Positions 50,649 through 56,792 of a stretch of DNA of 64,000 nucleotides are shown one piece after another (the stretch's first letter is position 1; every line of letters begins with the position of its first letter). Below the pieces are notes generated by a model, which worked only from the letters and a program-made list of their open reading frames with translations, did not search any database and was not told where the DNA came from. The position numbers were made by a program, and so were the translations under genes. Source of the DNA: Sulfuricella denitrificans skB26 (lineage in GTDB: Bacteria; Pseudomonadota; Gammaproteobacteria; Burkholderiales; Sulfuricellaceae); contig NC_022357.1 of assembly GCF_000297055.2 (NCBI RefSeq), forward strand, positions 806,001 to 870,000. The letters run 5' to 3'.

Positions 50649-52100
50649 ATGATAAAGATAGTACAGAACCCATCCCCGGTATCGGACAATGCGCTTGCCA
50701 AGGCATCGCATGTGCTTTTCGTCATGCCGAAAGCGAAAAGCCTTGCCGCGAACCTGCCCGGAGTCGATACCCTGCGGGCGCGCCTGGCGCGCCGCCATAT
50801 GAAGCCTGACGAGCTGGCCAAGAGCCCGCTGAGCGGTGATCTGGCGCCGGGTGCGCTGGCGGTCTGGGTCATGCTGGATGCCAAACAGTCCACATTCGAG
50901 CGGCATACGTTGATGCGCAAGGCGCTGATGCCATTGCTGGATGAACAACCCAGGGAAATTGCCATCGTCGTCATTGGCGGTGCTGAGGGGTGTCGCCTGG
51001 CCGCTGAAGCGGCAATCTATGCGGCTCTGGTCAATGGCGCCGTGCTGCCGCAGCGCAAGAAAAAGGACGCGCGCCGCTCGCTGCAAAAAATCACCCTGCA
51101 CGGCTACAAGGCCGAAGACGACTTTACCCTGCTACGTGGGCAGGCCGCAGGCAATGAGCTGGCGCGGGAGCTGACCATGTTGCCTGCCAACGAGCTGACG
51201 CCGGGCCTGTACCGCGAACGCGTCAGTAAACTGGCCAAGGAGAATGGCTGGAAATGCGTTGAGTACGACATGAAGAAGCTACGCAAGATCGGAGCGGGGG
51301 CGTTCGTTGCAGTGGCCCAGGGCAGCAGCGAGGACGATGCGGCTATCGTCCATTTGCGCTATCGCCATCCCGAAGCCAGGAAAACCATTGCCCTGGTCGG
51401 CAAGGGTATCTGCTTCGATACCGGCGGCCACAACCTTAAGCCTGCCCGCTACATGCACGGCATGCACGAAGATATGAATGGCTCAGCCGTCAGCCTGGGC
51501 ATACTGCTTGCCGCCACTCGCGCCAATCTTCCGCTCAACATCGACTGCTGGCTGGCGCTGGCGCAGAACCACATCAGCCCCAAGGCTTACAAGCAGAACG
51601 ATGTGGTGACCGCACTCAACGGCACCACCATAGAAATCATCCACACCGACGCTGAAGGGCGGATGGTGCTGGCCGACACCCTGACCCTGGCGGCGCGCGA
51701 GAAACCCGATCTGATCGTCGATTTCGCCACCCTCACCGGCAGCATGGCAACCGCGTTGGGAGCGCGCTACAGCGGCATCTTTTCCAACCGTGAAAAGGTT
51801 GTCGAGCAGGCAGTGGCGGCAGGGAAAATTTCCGGCGAACGGGTGTGCGCCTTCCCGCTCGACGCGGACTATGAAGAGGGACTGGAAAGCCAGATCGCCG
51901 ACATCAAGCAGTGCTCCATGGAAGGCGAGGCCGACCATATCCTGGCGGCACGTTTCCTGATGCGCTTCATCGAGGACGCGCCGTGGTTGCACGTCGATCT
52001 TTCCGCCAGTAACTGCAAGGGCGGACTCGGTGCGGTGGCGTCGGACGTCAACGGCTTTGGCGTGGGCTGGGGGATGGCGCTGCTGTGGGGTTTGAAATAA
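50649..52100 (+). CDS. M17-family leucyl aminopeptidase (second copy)
   Basis: 483 residues. The catalytic domain has VGKGICFDTGGHNLKP and IHTDAEGRMVLADTL with the metal-binding Lys/Asp/Glu set; a divergent N-terminal domain sets it apart from the pepA at 7.7 kb. It is closer to the PepB/LAP-like branch in my judgement. Ribosome site GGAG. Stands alone beside the accessory region. Confidence 0.9.
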   Translation: MIKIVQNPSPVSDNALAKASHVLFVMPKAKSLAANLPGVDTLRARLARRHMKPDELAKSPLSGDLAPGALAVWVMLDAKQSTFERHTLMRKALMPLLDEQPREIAIVVIGGAEGCRLAAEAAIYAALVNGAVLPQRKKKDARRSLQKITLHGYKAEDDFTLLRGQAAGNELARELTMLPANELTPGLYRERVSKLAKENGWKCVEYDMKKLRKIGAGAFVAVAQGSSEDDAAIVHLRYRHPEARKTIALVGKGICFDTGGHNLKPARYMHGMHEDMNGSAVSLGILLAATRANLPLNIDCWLALAQNHISPKAYKQNDVVTALNGTTIEIIHTDAEGRMVLADTLTLAAREKPDLIVDFATLTGSMATALGARYSGIFSNREKVVEQAVAAGKISGERVCAFPLDADYEEGLESQIADIKQCSMEGEADHILAARFLMRFIEDAPWLHVDLSASNCKGGLGAVASDVNGFGVGWGMALLWGLK

Positions 52101-52190: not shown

Positions 52191-52879
52191 ATTGAATTTT
52201 AGAGACGCCCATAAAGGTATCCGTATTCCGTGATCGCCAAGTGGCAACCACACGGCCAATCAAAAAATCGCTTCTGTGAACAGGCGGGTGAATGTCTCGG
52301 CAGTGCCAGTTTTAAATCGCCGTCGATCAGTCGCTAAAACCCGCTTATGCCGGGGGCTCAGACGTTTAGCGTCAGGCACAATGGGATGACTTATGAACAT
52401 AATGCGATTTGAAATTATAACAAAGTGTTGAAACTCTTTAATCTGTATGGGTATTTATTTATCTTGTTGTTTTATATAAAAAATATTTTTGCGTGTTAAA
52501 TAATCAAACCAATAAAAAAGTTTATGAATTAGATATGTGTCAGCCATGTTACATAATTATAAACAAACTTACCCACAGGCAATGTGGACACCCATTATTG
52601 GTTTGAGGCGTCAAGTAGAATACCCCTTGATCTCAGGATTATTTTACTCATGGTAACGGTATCAATGAGATAGAAATCTGTATTTTGATCTGGCACGCAA
52701 TGTTGCCGCGGTGGCCACAAGAGGTTCAGGAATTTTGTCATAATTCCTTACGCTGCTTGTGGTTGTATTGCAGCCCAATTGGGGCTGTTGTGTGCCAGTA
52801 GGGGCCGGTGGCTACACCTTGTTTGACCGGCAGCATTGTGACGAACAGCGGTCAATGAGGCAAAGAGTTATTGGGATTT
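52191..52879. other. Noncoding A/T-rich stretch left of the cassettes
   Basis: I find no credible gene. The first part (to about 52380) has mixed composition; 52380-52640 is strongly A/T-rich with many stops in all frames. A small palindrome (CAGCCC/GGGCTG, 52771-52787) and an inverted TTGACCG/CGGTCAA pair around 52825-52857 are seen. It may hold decayed cassette sequence. Confidence 0.5.
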
Positions 52880-52911
52880 TCTACAGCGTCCTCTCAATGG
52901 AAGGGTTAGGC
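52880..52911 (-). other. Half attC site (truncated) after the HNH cassette
   Basis: On the minus strand the HNH stop codon lies inside GCCTAAC (R'' box, 52911-52905), followed by a TTCCATTGAGAGGACGC arm of the kind found in the left half of attC sites. The partner half with a GTTRRRY box was not found in the next 200 bases, so the site seems cut off. Confidence 0.55.
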
Positions 52912-53778
52912 CTCTGTGCCCGAGCCCTTGATATTTGATGTGTAGGCTGCTGCTGAGATGGCGCCGGGATTGAAGCCGAGATCTTCATAGGTGTAAATAA
53001 TGACTTCTGGTTTACGCTCGACCTTTTGAAGCTCTTCCGCAGTGATGAAGAGGTTTGAGACGGGCTTCATGCTTTCTCTTCCAACAACGTAGATCAGTAC
53101 CCCTCGGGCCTTTCTGCCAGTCATAGCTTCATAGGTTGATGTCGCCGCCTCGATCTGACGGACCCAAATGGGGCCATCCTCGTATGCCCTTCGAAGCCAC
53201 CGAACTTCCACTACCAAGTCTTCGGGTAGGTCGTCGTCTTGTCTCAATGCATCAAGAGTCAGCCTAGCTGATCCTTTGGAGACTCGGGGCTGTCTGTCCA
53301 GATAAAGACCAATTTCGCGCTCGTACTTTGAGAGAGCGAGTTGCTCCAAAGTTTGCGCCATGAGAGCTGCGCGGGGAGCCACCTCCTTACGTGGAACCCC
53401 GACGTCTTCGCTGGGTGCGGTGGGTGCAGGAGTCGGCTGTTCGTCTTCCGGCTTTGGCGCCTGCGCCAACAACTGTTCGAGTCGTTCGAGTCGCTGCTTC
53501 AGGTCGGCTTCGTAGCTATTGGAGAGTCGACTTTTGTACTCACGAAGAGCCTTGCGATCAATCACGCCAGCGTGAGCCATCTTGTGATGCTTATCGCAGA
53601 GGAGTATCAAGTTCTCCACTTGGTTATCTTCGCGATTCTCATTTATGTGATGAATCTCAAGGTATGTGTGCTCGTTGCACCTAGAAATGGCACAGGCATG
53701 GCCAGACTCAACCTCTACCGACCGGCGCACCTCTGCCGATGGCGGTGGTCTCTCGCGCTCGTACTTGGGGTCAACCAT
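52906..53778 (-). CDS. HNH-endonuclease protein with unknown C-terminal domain (integron cassette)
   Basis: 290 residues. HNH nuclease at 25-70: Cys29/Cys34 and Cys61 with nearby His suggest a zinc site, and LEIHHINENREDN then NLILLCDKHHKMAH give the H-N-H residues. A helical linker (75-108) and a Pro/Glu-rich hinge (109-130) lead to a second domain (about 140-285) with EVRWLRRAY and GVLIYVVGRESM, which I do not recognise; it might be a worn PD-(D/E)xK-like or sensor fold. No ribosome site, as is usual in cassettes. Restriction-like defence is inferred. Confidence 0.87.
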   Translation of the reverse strand: MVDPKYERERPPPSAEVRRSVEVESGHACAISRCNEHTYLEIHHINENREDNQVENLILLCDKHHKMAHAGVIDRKALREYKSRLSNSYEADLKQRLERLEQLLAQAPKPEDEQPTPAPTAPSEDVGVPRKEVAPRAALMAQTLEQLALSKYEREIGLYLDRQPRVSKGSARLTLDALRQDDDLPEDLVVEVRWLRRAYEDGPIWVRQIEAATSTYEAMTGRKARGVLIYVVGRESMKPVSNLFITAEELQKVERKPEVIIYTYEDLGFNPGAISAAAYTSNIKGSGTEA

Positions 53779-53790
53779 GTTTGTACAGAG

Positions 53791-53862
53791 GCCTAACGTG
53801 GAGCTAACCGGACCGCAAAATGCGCAGCATTTTGTGGGTCCGTGTTGAGCGCAATGTTAGAC
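53791..53862 (-). other. Complete attC recombination site
   Basis: 72 bp, read on the minus strand: GTCTAAC (R'') ... GCGCTCAAC ... CGGACC, a CAAAATGC/GCATTTTG stem, GGTCCG, GTTAGCTC (L') ... GTTAGGC (R'). Box spacing, imperfect L stem and stop-codon overlap with the ATPase gene fit canonical attC sites. Confidence 0.85.
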
Positions 53863-55134
53863 CTTCGGTAGACCGGCGAGTGAAAGCAGTTCATTACGAT
53901 CTTGCTTGTCTAGCCAAATCAAAAAACCACTATCGACAACGCGCAGATTTAGATTGGTTTGATCGTAGTCAAGAATAATAGGTTTTATTTCTTTCTTGAC
54001 TTGAAGTGCGGCAGTTGACTGGAGTGCTTGTGTTAAGTTTCCGGGATTCAAATCCCCTTTTGATGGGTGGTTGGCCTCCAACGTTTCTCGAATTTTGCTG
54101 TATTTAAGGCCGGAGCGCAGTTCGCTGATGCTTGCAGTAAGAACGGGAAATAGCAACCATTTATGCATTTCAAGTGCAGTCGTTTGAAAACCTTCCGAGA
54201 ACTGAGTTATGAATGAATTGAATCGCCCAGTCTGTTGTGCTACAACCGCACTTACGATGCTTTCAACCTGTGCTTTGTCTCCGATTTCAATTGTCTGTTC
54301 TTTTGTTTCGTAAATGTTCCACTTTTTGCAGCACTGGTGACATGACTCTTGAAGTATATAGACGCTACCGTGGCATTGTTTTAGCAATTCTGAGACGAAG
54401 TCGCTATTAAACTTGATGTTTAGCAGATTCTCCCCTTCAGTTATAACCTTTTTTAGCTCATCGTCCTCCCACTTATCTGCGTTGATGGAGGTTACTCTGC
54501 CAGTTAGGTCGCCGTTGTATACGGTTAGACGATTTTCCTCAAGCCAAACCCCCACAATAATAAAACAATACTTTGATTCCTCGTGAAATGCTTTTAGTGC
54601 AACCGAGAAGTCTTTTTGTGTGTCAGTTGGGAGGTAGTGAAAGTCTTCTAGCACAATGTATTTGTTGAAATTGATGCTGTTAAGCGCGGAGATGATGTCG
54701 TTTACGTCATCCGGATCAAGTTCGAGAGGGGTTGTTGTGCTTTCTCTAGTATTTTCTCTTTCCGCTTCCGCGCCGCCCTCGGCGCTTGCCCCGAAAAAAC
54801 TCGCGGTTATTTTTGCAAATATTTTCGACTTGCCTGTTGTTGATTTTGAGTTTGACTGGGTTAGCTCAAACCCGGATTTCTTTAATATTGCAGAATTTAT
54901 GTCAGACAACTGCCACTTGTTTGAGCAGTGAACAACTACGCAATCAGGCTCTTGCAGGGCATGCTTTCGGAGACTCGTCTTGCCTTGCTTGGAGCTTCCA
55001 AATATTACAAGATGCTTTTCTCGTGTAAGGTTTTCGACCAGTTTATTGTCTGCAGAATCTCTCTCCACATAATTGAGTGGAAGGTCCCTTGTGATTCCGA
55101 ATACGTCCGATGTGTTGTGTTTGTTTGTGCTCAT
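53857..55134 (-). CDS. P-loop ATPase (integron cassette)
   Basis: 425 residues. Walker A GSSKQGKTS (46-54), Walker B IVLEDFHYL (160-168, Asp/Glu pair), a sensor-like GVWLEENR (195-202) and an Arg in GDLTGRV (about 213) point to an AAA/Orc- or STAND-like NTPase. A low-complexity Gly/Ala/Ser/Glu insert (112-137) interrupts the ATPase fold. The C-terminal about 190 residues are unrecognised, perhaps winged-helix-like. A/T-rich codon use unlike the neighbours. Its stop is inside the attC R'' box. Confidence 0.85.
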   Translation of the reverse strand: MSTNKHNTSDVFGITRDLPLNYVERDSADNKLVENLTREKHLVIFGSSKQGKTSLRKHALQEPDCVVVHCSNKWQLSDINSAILKKSGFELTQSNSKSTTGKSKIFAKITASFFGASAEGGAEAERENTRESTTTPLELDPDDVNDIISALNSINFNKYIVLEDFHYLPTDTQKDFSVALKAFHEESKYCFIIVGVWLEENRLTVYNGDLTGRVTSINADKWEDDELKKVITEGENLLNIKFNSDFVSELLKQCHGSVYILQESCHQCCKKWNIYETKEQTIEIGDKAQVESIVSAVVAQQTGRFNSFITQFSEGFQTTALEMHKWLLFPVLTASISELRSGLKYSKIRETLEANHPSKGDLNPGNLTQALQSTAALQVKKEIKPIILDYDQTNLNLRVVDSGFLIWLDKQDRNELLSLAGLPKV

Positions 55135-55179
55135 GTGATGATTGCTCTGATAGTTGAGTGCCTGAGAGATAAGTGCTGG

Positions 55180-55226
55180 GTCTAACAGTTATTATACGGA
55201 CCCACCGGTCAGTATTATTGTTAATT
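55180..55226 (-). other. Compact attC-like hairpin before the ATPase cassette
   Basis: 47 bp. On the minus strand it ends in GTTAGAC (R' box), starts with AATTAAC (one mismatch to RYYYAAC), and has an ATACTGACC/GGTCCGTAT inner stem around a GGTG loop. Unusually short; it could be a reduced attC or the end of an attI. Confidence 0.5.
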
Positions 55227-55426
55227 ATAAGGCGCGCTTATTTTTGATAAGTTGTTGTTTCATAGCAACTCGATAAATTTCCCTGTCCGCATATGATGTA
55301 ATAATACGTCAAATCAATATTGGTCACGTGGTTTACTGGGAATTAGCCTTCAATATCGACTCGTGAGGCTATTCTTAGGTGTTTAACAGACTGTCAGCGA
55401 GATGGGCGTGATCGGCAGCTTAGGGT
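55227..55426. other. Noncoding stretch between cassettes and MITE-like element
   Basis: 200 A/T-rich bases with stops in all frames. No gene, RNA or integrase fragment recognised. Confidence 0.5.
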
Positions 55427-55649
55427 CTATTCTGTTGAAAAACTCTTTTTTCAGGCGACTTAAAAAAATTCTAGCCGCTTAGATCGATTTTCTCTCGAAG
55501 GACGTACCTGGAATCATGTGGGACACGATCGTTCGTTGCAGGGTTGCTTAATTCTTTCGCAATACAGGAAGTTGATTGCATTCTTTGAGAGCAACAGCAT
55601 GTGGAAAATTTTTAGCGCCCCTCAGAAAAAGAGTTTTTCAACAGAATAG
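55427..55649. mobile_element. MITE-like element with 24-bp perfect terminal inverted repeats
   Basis: CTATTCTGTTGAAAAACTCT plus four T at 55427-55450 is exactly complementary to 55626-55649, and weaker similarity runs about 20 bases further inward on each side. The 223-bp inside has no coding frame. Flanks share only GT, so the target duplication is unclear. TCTGTTGAAAAA-type ends are seen on several insertion sequences, so a deleted IS is an alternative. Confidence 0.75.
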
Positions 55650-55770
55650 GTCGATTGCAGGCGGTCACCTTCCCGTAAACAATAGGGATTTATCAGCCTT
55701 GTTGTGGTTTATCGAGAGTATCGAGAATTATGCCGGTTTCAATCATGGGATCCGAATACCAGAAATAAAT
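55650..55770. other. Short noncoding spacer
   Basis: No gene or structure seen between the MITE-like element and the terminator of the MBL gene. Confidence 0.5.
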
Positions 55771-55835: not shown

Positions 55836-56792
55836 TTATTTTGCCTGCATCCCTTCGTTCTCCATCAGGAGGTAGGTGTTATAGGCATTGACCCGGTTGG
55901 CTGCCTGGAATGCCGGCAAATGCTCGAATTCCTTCCAGGAGGTCTTGGCGTAAGCTTCCTCGAACGGTTCCATGTTGGCTGCCGCCTTGCCCATGGTGTT
56001 CCGCAGATAGAGCAGGTAATCGCGCGTGAACACGAGATCCGCTGCGGCATTCGTGGACGCCTTGCCATGCCCCGGCACCATGATCTTCGGCTTCAGCTTG
56101 ATCAACCGGTCAAGTGCTTCCAGCCATGCCTTGCTGTCGGCGTTGCCGACATAGGGCACGCGGCCCTTGAAAACCATGTCGCCTGAATAAAGCACGCCAT
56201 CTTCTTTGACCAGCATCACCATGTCTTCCGGTGAATGTGCCGGCCCCACGTAAGCCAGCTCGAAATGCAATCCGCCCATTTCAAAACGCATCTCGCCTTC
56301 CAGCCACTTGTCGGCAGGCAGCAGTCGGGTGGTTTCATCTACCCACGGGAACAGGGTCTCCCGTCGTTGGGCGAGGCGCAACTGCGCCTCATCTGAGGCC
56401 AGATATTCCTGGCCGCGTCGGTGCGCCCAGATTTCCGCGCCCAGCGCCTTGAATGCCTGGAGGCCGTAAATATGGTCGGCATGATAGTGGCTGACAATAA
56501 CGCGCCGGATCGGCTGGCGGGTGATTTTGCGGATTTGCCGGATCATCTCCGCTGCCAGCGGCGGTGAGCCGAGCGTATCGAACACCACGACGCCGTCGGA
56601 CGTGACGACGAAGCCGGCGTTGGACATGAAACCCTGGTTGGCTGACGAAGCCGCGCCGGCCAAACCCTGCACATAGTAAGCATGCGGGCTCAGCTTGATT
56701 GGTTTGACTTTGACCGTGACCGTAGTCTCGTCTGACGCGCTCGCAGCCGTGGACATGAAAAGGAACAGAAGAAAGGCGAAAAAGGGTTGCAT
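55836..56792 (-). CDS. Periplasmic MBL-fold hydrolase (SoxH / quinoprotein-relay type)
   Basis: 318 residues with a signal peptide (cut near AASAS). Metallo-beta-lactamase motif HYHADHIYG, a metal His in YVGPAHSPEDM, the Asp in LYSGDMVF and the final His in MVPGHGKAS are all there. It resembles SoxH of sox clusters and quinoprotein relay system hydrolases. The substrate is unknown. It may share the upstream transcript with the MDR gene, 86 bases away. Confidence 0.9.
   Translation of the reverse strand: MQPFFAFLLFLFMSTAASASDETTVTVKVKPIKLSPHAYYVQGLAGAASSANQGFMSNAGFVVTSDGVVVFDTLGSPPLAAEMIRQIRKITRQPIRRVIVSHYHADHIYGLQAFKALGAEIWAHRRGQEYLASDEAQLRLAQRRETLFPWVDETTRLLPADKWLEGEMRFEMGGLHFELAYVGPAHSPEDMVMLVKEDGVLYSGDMVFKGRVPYVGNADSKAWLEALDRLIKLKPKIMVPGHGKASTNAAADLVFTRDYLLYLRNTMGKAAANMEPFEEAYAKTSWKEFEHLPAFQAANRVNAYNTYLLMENEGMQAK

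Follow-up and report, generated by a model that had tools for sequence, protein, structure and literature searches.

Adjacent integron cassettes in Sulfuricella denitrificans skB26 encode a PDC-S59 ATPase and an HNH nuclease, two candidate single-gene anti-phage proteins

Within a 64,000-nucleotide stretch of Sulfuricella denitrificans skB26 (NC_022357.1, positions 806,001 to 870,000; hereafter the window, G000:C1:806001-870000 of a 3.2 Mb genome in two contigs), two adjacent genes encode a P-loop ATPase and an HNH nuclease. We read them as two independent single-gene anti-phage candidates rather than one system, with a probability of roughly 0.6; we attribute their adjacency to the separate arrival of each as an integron cassette. 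An earlier note, made from the letters of the window, had left the choice between an ATPase–nuclease defence pair and two single-gene defences. Genome context backs the second option, for genes whose function is predicted. Both open reading frames (ORFs) were confirmed and are intact.

53857..55134, minus strand: ATPase ORF, 425 aa
52906..53778, minus strand: HNH nuclease ORF, 290 aa
53791..53862, minus strand: attC of the ATPase cassette, GTCTAAC...GTTAGGC, 72 nt; fold z −4.50; 28 of 36 possible end-to-end pairs
55180..55186, minus strand: core GTTAGAC opening the ATPase cassette, the complement of the GTCTAAC that ends it
52905..52911, minus strand: core GCCTAAC (R'') ending the HNH cassette, the complement of the GTTAGGC that opens it

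Two cassettes, not a pair

The genes are divided by a complete attC site, which bears out the cassette assignment of the earlier note: none of 200 shuffles folded as stably as the attC itself. Its R'' overlaps the ATPase stop codon. Each cassette also has its own matching pair of cores: GTTAGAC (55186) and GTCTAAC (53862) for the ATPase gene, GTTAGGC (53797) and GCCTAAC (52911) for the HNH gene. In the distal half of the HNH cassette's attC only the core was recognisable, with no matching R' and no stable fold. Genome-wide, attC-type pattern matches numbered 3 per strand, the window's own attC included, versus 16 and 14 in a reversed-pattern control. Since no integron integrase scored over the cut-off (NCBIfam TIGR02249) in the genome, the two look like orphan cassettes. 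Elsewhere in the genome, a 66-aa open frame at G000:C1:2630932-2631045 (loci L008 and L019) matches TIGR02249 over profile positions 277-314 only, and is a possible remnant of a lost intI.

To ask whether the ATPase keeps a partner, we examined 138 loci carrying its relatives: 5 of 11 plasmid matches, 7 loci from sampled genomes, 46 on viral contigs and 80 on genome contigs, the last being the best 80 of 146 confirmed relatives. Among the 135 loci with a called ATPase gene, 90 extend at least 4 kb on both sides; the ATPase was unmatched in the gene calls of L042, L154 and L167, and by tblastn in L041 and L042. In ten locus pairs the last 300 residues of the ATPase are 97-100% the same, and in four of the ten they are identical (L039/L125, L045/L178, L046/L133 and L055/L075).

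The co-occurrence survey that the earlier note had proposed returned no HNH relative at E ≤ 1e-3 in any of the 138 loci, whether phmmer was run against the called genes or tblastn against the DNA (lowest tblastn E 0.70, in L145). No third gene was constant around the ATPase either, the commonest cluster appearing in 12 of 138 loci at scattered offsets, so that on genomic evidence the family occurs as a single gene. Conversely, the 16.8 kb surrounding the sole full-length HNH relative found contain no ORF related to the ATPase. In two samples of 398 phylum genomes each, the ATPase family was matched in 8 of the first, source genome included, and the HNH protein in 6 of the second, at full length in the source genome only; the source genome alone held both. 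The G+C contents also differ (43% for the ATPase gene and 54% for the HNH gene, in a window of 57%).

ATPase–nuclease pairs are a known defence design, a two-gene example exists among the listed defence systems, and these genes are adjacent, on one strand and in one locus; the intervening attC, the absence of co-occurrence from either side, the lack of a constant neighbour and the differing G+C nevertheless lead us to reject a joint system as very improbable. Their side-by-side location is most plausibly a chance outcome of cassette insertion.

The ATPase, its family and its prophage positions

The ATPase matches the PADLOC candidate family PDC-S59 (profile PDLC05049) almost end to end, residues 6-407 aligning to profile positions 3-399 of 428 with E 4.1e-81, and is an additional member of it. 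The ATPase is thus not strictly undescribed, its family being a listed but uncharacterised candidate. Residues 6-407 are common to both, each is a solo gene, and no difference between the two was established. The name PDC-S59 was not found in a name search of 5.39 million open-access papers. PDC families are reported to be called by guilt-by-embedding and to be largely unvalidated (PMC12988326). Neither cassette gene matched a housekeeping family in the profile libraries scanned; such a match for both was the outcome that the earlier note had named as refuting its proposal.

Relatives with 49-76% identity come from records labelled Marichromatium, Desulfovibrio, Hymenobacter, Streptomyces, Mycolicibacterium, Komarekiella, Halorubrum and others, some of them metagenome-assembled genomes. 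The family spans Proteobacteria to a haloarchaeon, and its spread is patchy, as that of a mobile gene is. Cassette carriage is rare in the examined set: an attC-like site lies downstream of the ATPase in 1 of 135 loci, versus 0 of 650 random windows. That locus, from Minicystis rosea (L128:8001-9400), is the only other one of the 135 whose PDC-S59 gene has an attC-like hairpin just downstream. On a Shewanella plasmid (L025:9376-10263), a 295-aa ORF directly follows the PDC-S59 gene, and ParA and ParB family genes lie upstream.

The earlier note's call of an AAA/STAND-like NTPase is upheld by a P-loop, a Walker B-like strand and a model comprising a nucleotide-binding domain (NBD), a helical domain and a winged helix.

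54976..54999, minus strand: Walker A / P-loop, GSSKQGKT at residues 46-53; G51 and K52 do not vary across 92 aligned sequences
54640..54657, minus strand: Walker B-like strand, IVLEDF at residues 160-165; all 92 aligned sequences keep E163 and F165, partly by construction, since the pattern used to collect relatives covered this stretch
54715..54852, minus strand: insert, residues 95-140, amphipathic β-hairpin with hydrophobic tip; conserved length, family-level alternation, model
53905..54108, minus strand: C-terminal winged-helix domain, residues about 343-410; model and structural alignments

The C-terminus, which the earlier note had called unknown, is a winged-helix domain in the confident model, with helices at 345-355, 364-372 and 374-380 and strands at 388-391 and 396-399; structural alignments to Orc1/Cdc6 and CED-4 extend to residues 421-425. 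The confident model thus describes a minimal STAND/Orc-like NTPase, predicted to bind and hydrolyze ATP. At 425 aa, the protein begins at the NBD and ends after the winged helix, with no fused sensor repeats or effector domain. It thereby differs from NLR/Apaf-type STAND ATPases such as CED-4 and the NRC4 resistosome, which carry an N-terminal effector and C-terminal sensor repeats. Avs-like bacterial proteins are likewise NLR-type STAND ATPases. Among the closest known systems are the archaeal ATPases SSO1545 (2fna) and PABY2304 (2qen), which we take to be STAND-type and which the sequence search did not find. That search gave no convincing relative in the Protein Data Bank, the one match being an antibody chain at E 0.35. 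Foldseek on the viral models returned mainly clamp loaders, with an NLR-like-named entry at rank 28.

A third of the ATPase loci (46 of 138) lie on viral contigs, and several recurrent positions were apparent. In L062, L063, L066 and L067, the ATPase gene lies 32-40 bp downstream of a CI-like repressor gene on the same strand, the position of rexAB in lambda. At seven loci (L078, L080, L081, L083, L085, L086 and L161, of which L078/L080 and L081/L086 are near-identical), it adjoins a gene V-like baseplate gene on the opposite strand. The annotation of Escherichia coli PSS-08-1, one of 4 among 5426 E. coli genomes matching the L080 ATPase gene, shows the same inverted arrangement beside a gene V-like baseplate gene. 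The distance from the ATPase to a portal-like gene is 35 bp in L044 and 306 bp in both L045 and L178, whose sequences are the same.

The portal position is on the side of the P2 defence hotspot documented between gpA and gpQ (PMC9122126). The two distinct PDC-S59 loci that adjoin a portal-like gene thereby match the side of the P2 genome that carries old and tin. The P2 proteins Old and Tin differ from PDC-S59, other copies of which occupy other sites. The remaining viral loci show contexts other than CI, baseplate or portal. When 131 prophage neighbors (150 sampled of 162, with 19 short or doubtful proteins dropped by hand) were compared with PHROGs, the families among the matches listed included tail completion, tail terminator, baseplate, CI-like repressor and portal. 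A search of 50,697 phage records yielded a single ATPase match, weak and partial. Because the viral contigs come from genomes and metagenomes and the gene is scarce in phage records, it presumably resides mostly in prophages and hardly in sequenced phage isolates.

The insert that the earlier note had singled out as odd and of low complexity is real, at about residues 95-140, and is a conserved feature of the family rather than an oddity. The region aligned to residues 86-150 measures 61-70 aa in all of the 92 sequences except that of L170, where it has 43. Residues 114-133 have a predicted local distance difference test score (pLDDT) below 50 in the monomer model. The family consensus shows polar/apolar alternation, a hydrophobic tip and alternation again; in the L182 clade it reads SVGLKFKAKIPFLGKGDAEAGAEG. 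Permutation of column hydrophobicity gave p of 0.0048 for the 48 sequences near the window, 0.001 for a clade of 25, 0.0026 for a clade of 24 consisting largely of the same sequences as the 25, and 0.033 for a clade of 6. A window in the insert region ranked first protein-wide in the first three clades, and in the fourth the top windows overlap the insert.

Among single sequences, 43 of 44 representatives were testable; mean z was 1.64 for strand 1 and 1.41 for strand 2, with p < 0.05 in 47% and 35% of sequences, respectively, although the tip was chosen by hydrophobicity, which may favor this test. Fixed 12-residue windows, which are independent of the tip, scored 1.26, 1.64, 0.95, 0.26 and 1.05 over residues 86-145; elsewhere the scores ranged from −1.3 to 0.91, apart from a single stretch considered below. 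The conserved hairpin is suggested to be the effector element of the ATPase, and is the best candidate since the protein has no other effector domain; it is also what sets the protein apart from the shared fold.

The HNH protein and the insertion site

53572..53694, minus strand: HNH/zinc motif, residues 29-69; residues kept in the Enterobacter relative
52909..53400, minus strand: C-terminal domain, HNH protein; unmatched in Pfam up to E 10; 41% identity to the Enterobacter relative

The full-length relative, with 48-49% identity, is encoded on an Enterobacter cancerogenus plasmid. C29, C34, H43, H44, N56, C61, H64 and H65, a motif assigned by reading, are all identical in this 49% identical protein, and the designation as an HNH nuclease accordingly holds. 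The C-terminal domain (residues 127-290) had been described as unknown, and indeed no Pfam family matched it up to E 10; we suspect a PD-(D/E)XK-like fold from its sequence. A single-sequence structure model of the protein was worthless (pLDDT 36). The HNH segment is common to ZorE (match E 7.9e-7), IscB-type HNH and SAVED-HNH proteins, from which the window protein differs by its C-terminal domain without a Pfam family. Identity with the Zorya type II protein ZorE was considered and rejected, as the HNH segment only matches and the ZorE equivalog scored 13.6 bits against a cut-off of 600.

Of the 15 annotated proteins in the Enterobacter plasmid stretch, 6 were scanned; the stretch holds a type II methyltransferase with its restriction enzyme, and PDC-S51 and PDC-S49 are matched in part. 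A second protein (L197:1498-2451) resembles the HNH protein in its N-terminal module (54% over residues 9-88), differs in the C-terminus, which contains DUF3298, and has a PDC-S15-like neighbor (FRG-type by reading). These two cases, with no statistic attached, suggest that the HNH module is joined to differing C-terminal domains among defence-like genes. On viral contigs, 24 loci match the HNH protein, in the N-terminal part only. The same was true of every match in 369 class and 398 phylum genomes except the source genome's own. No relative of the C-terminal domain was found in viral contigs, and PLSDB held only the Enterobacter plasmid. The whole protein had no relative in phage records, and the Enterobacter gene had no blastn match in E. 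coli genomes. The HNH nuclease candidate is rare and probably a stand-alone anti-virus gene.

The cassettes are flanked by a leucyl-aminopeptidase-like gene (pepA, 50649-52100) and a metallo-β-lactamase-fold gene (MBL, 55836-56792), both names assigned by reading the sequence. We compared 8 relatives around their pepA gene by blastn and tblastn, and neither cassette gene was matched in these stretches.

52797..55649, no strand: segment whose place at the pepA/MBL site is taken by other DNA in L217, the closest congener (8 relatives compared by blastn and tblastn)

This congener, 95-96% identical on both flanks, has 2.8 kb of other DNA in place of the segment. The MBL gene comes after pepA in 4 of the 8 relatives, at a spacing of a few bases to ~0.8 kb in L211, L213 and L214, and was not found in the pepA stretch of L212, L215, L216 and L218. 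With other DNA or little DNA at this position in congeners, the site is variable and the cassettes represent an insertion. By reading, the L217 segment (L217:1335-4106) encodes GGDEF-like and PEP-CTERM-like proteins, content which suggests a general insertion site. Just upstream of the ATPase cassette, at 55408-55668, is an inverted repeat resembling a miniature inverted-repeat transposable element, with 43-nt arms that are 79% complementary and 175 nt between them; homology to L217 resumes at 55649, inside its second arm.

Competing readings and implications

Under single-gene defence, the ATPase would most likely rest in an inactive nucleotide-bound form, oligomerize on detecting a phage product or process, and then abort infection. 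The hairpin would perform the killing step, by membrane insertion or otherwise. The HNH protein would act separately, probably cutting invading DNA, with cleavage directed by its C-terminal recognition domain.

Several observations weigh against single-gene defence. The anti-phage role is predicted, for both genes, from sequence and context. The ATPase fold also occurs in replication and transposition ATPases (Orc, RFC and TnsC), making DNA-related roles possible. Alternation in the hairpin of the window's own sequence is not significant (p 0.47 and 0.16), and one stretch outside the insert, residues 170-181, a helix in the model, reaches 1.8, as high as the hairpin. For the nuclease, every Pfam score is under the gathering cut-off (HNH_3 E 0.00089; HNH_2 E 0.0024), and the Enterobacter protein is the sole full-length relative found across searches. 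The locus has about as many promoter-like sites as its shuffled versions (3 vs 2.8).

The genes surrounding the ATPase belong with these points. From the 271 genes lying no more than two genes from the ATPase at 89 non-viral loci, 150 were sampled; once four ATPase fragments and an ORF that overlaps the start of the ATPase were removed, the 145 near genes left match 192 PADLOC families, with Hma, Hachiman, AbiE, RT, type II RM, type IV REase, PbeA, Cas1, PDC-S56 and PDC-S35 among the matches listed. The distal genes (150 of 243) match 76, with Gabija, AbiU, SoFic, AriA, RT-helicase, mad2 and mad3 (in 6 genes) among the matches listed. Near genes are not clearly richer in PADLOC families than distal genes of the same loci, which served as the background. 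As several families describe one protein and only part of the matches is listed, we claim no defence enrichment.

Of the alternatives, the strongest, to which we assign somewhat less than an even chance, is that the ATPase aborts infection with a hairpin that does not touch membranes. The insert would then serve ring assembly or the binding of a substrate or partner, and either the ATPase activity itself or a host protein would be the effector. In favor, the core that bears the hairpin is confidently folded, the apolar face of strand 2 is mostly Ala/Gly, and amphipathic hairpins are also common in soluble proteins; the tip, however, is hydrophobic in most clades and adjoins the stretch that is disordered in the monomer model. 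We regard as unlikely the bolder proposal that PDC-S59 is a minimal "β-barrel resistosome", an NLR/Apaf-like ATPase that, once it senses phage, would form a ring and insert an NBD-borne β-hairpin into the membrane as a pore. Alternating strands flanking a hydrophobic tip, as expected of a β-barrel pore, reach significance at family level (p 0.001-0.033) but not for the window's sequence alone, and soluble hairpins can match them as well.

Comparably doubtful is an Orc/TnsC-like helper in replication, partition or transposition, carried by mobile elements for their own maintenance. Unlike Orc1/Cdc6 and the TnsC AAA+ ATPases, PDC-S59 loci have no transposase, replication or transposition gene as a constant neighbor. 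P2-like prophages carry the ATPase on the opposite strand inside the late operon, and at four other viral loci it comes after the repressor gene, where lysogenic-conversion genes can be found. Slightly less probable again is that neither gene is defensive and both are neutral cassette passengers: expression is doubtful given the lack of an integrase over the cut-off and of a promoter-like excess, but both ORFs are intact and the ATPase family is conserved and spread across phyla.

Together, these findings add a minimal STAND-like architecture, a conserved hairpin and prophage cargo positions to what is listed for PDC-S59, a gene common to prophages, plasmids and chromosomes, and rarely to integron cassettes, of bacteria and at least one archaeon. 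A pore-forming hairpin would constitute a β-hairpin mode of killing by a STAND-like protein, for which a narrow check of titles and abstracts in the literature searched found no example. If the resistosome proposal were true, a single gene of ~425 codons would combine sensor, switch and pore and lack a separate effector domain. If defensive, PDC-S59 would be a stripped-down relative of NLR-type immune ATPases lacking the usual effector and sensor parts, and a simple system for asking what an NTPase switch alone can do.
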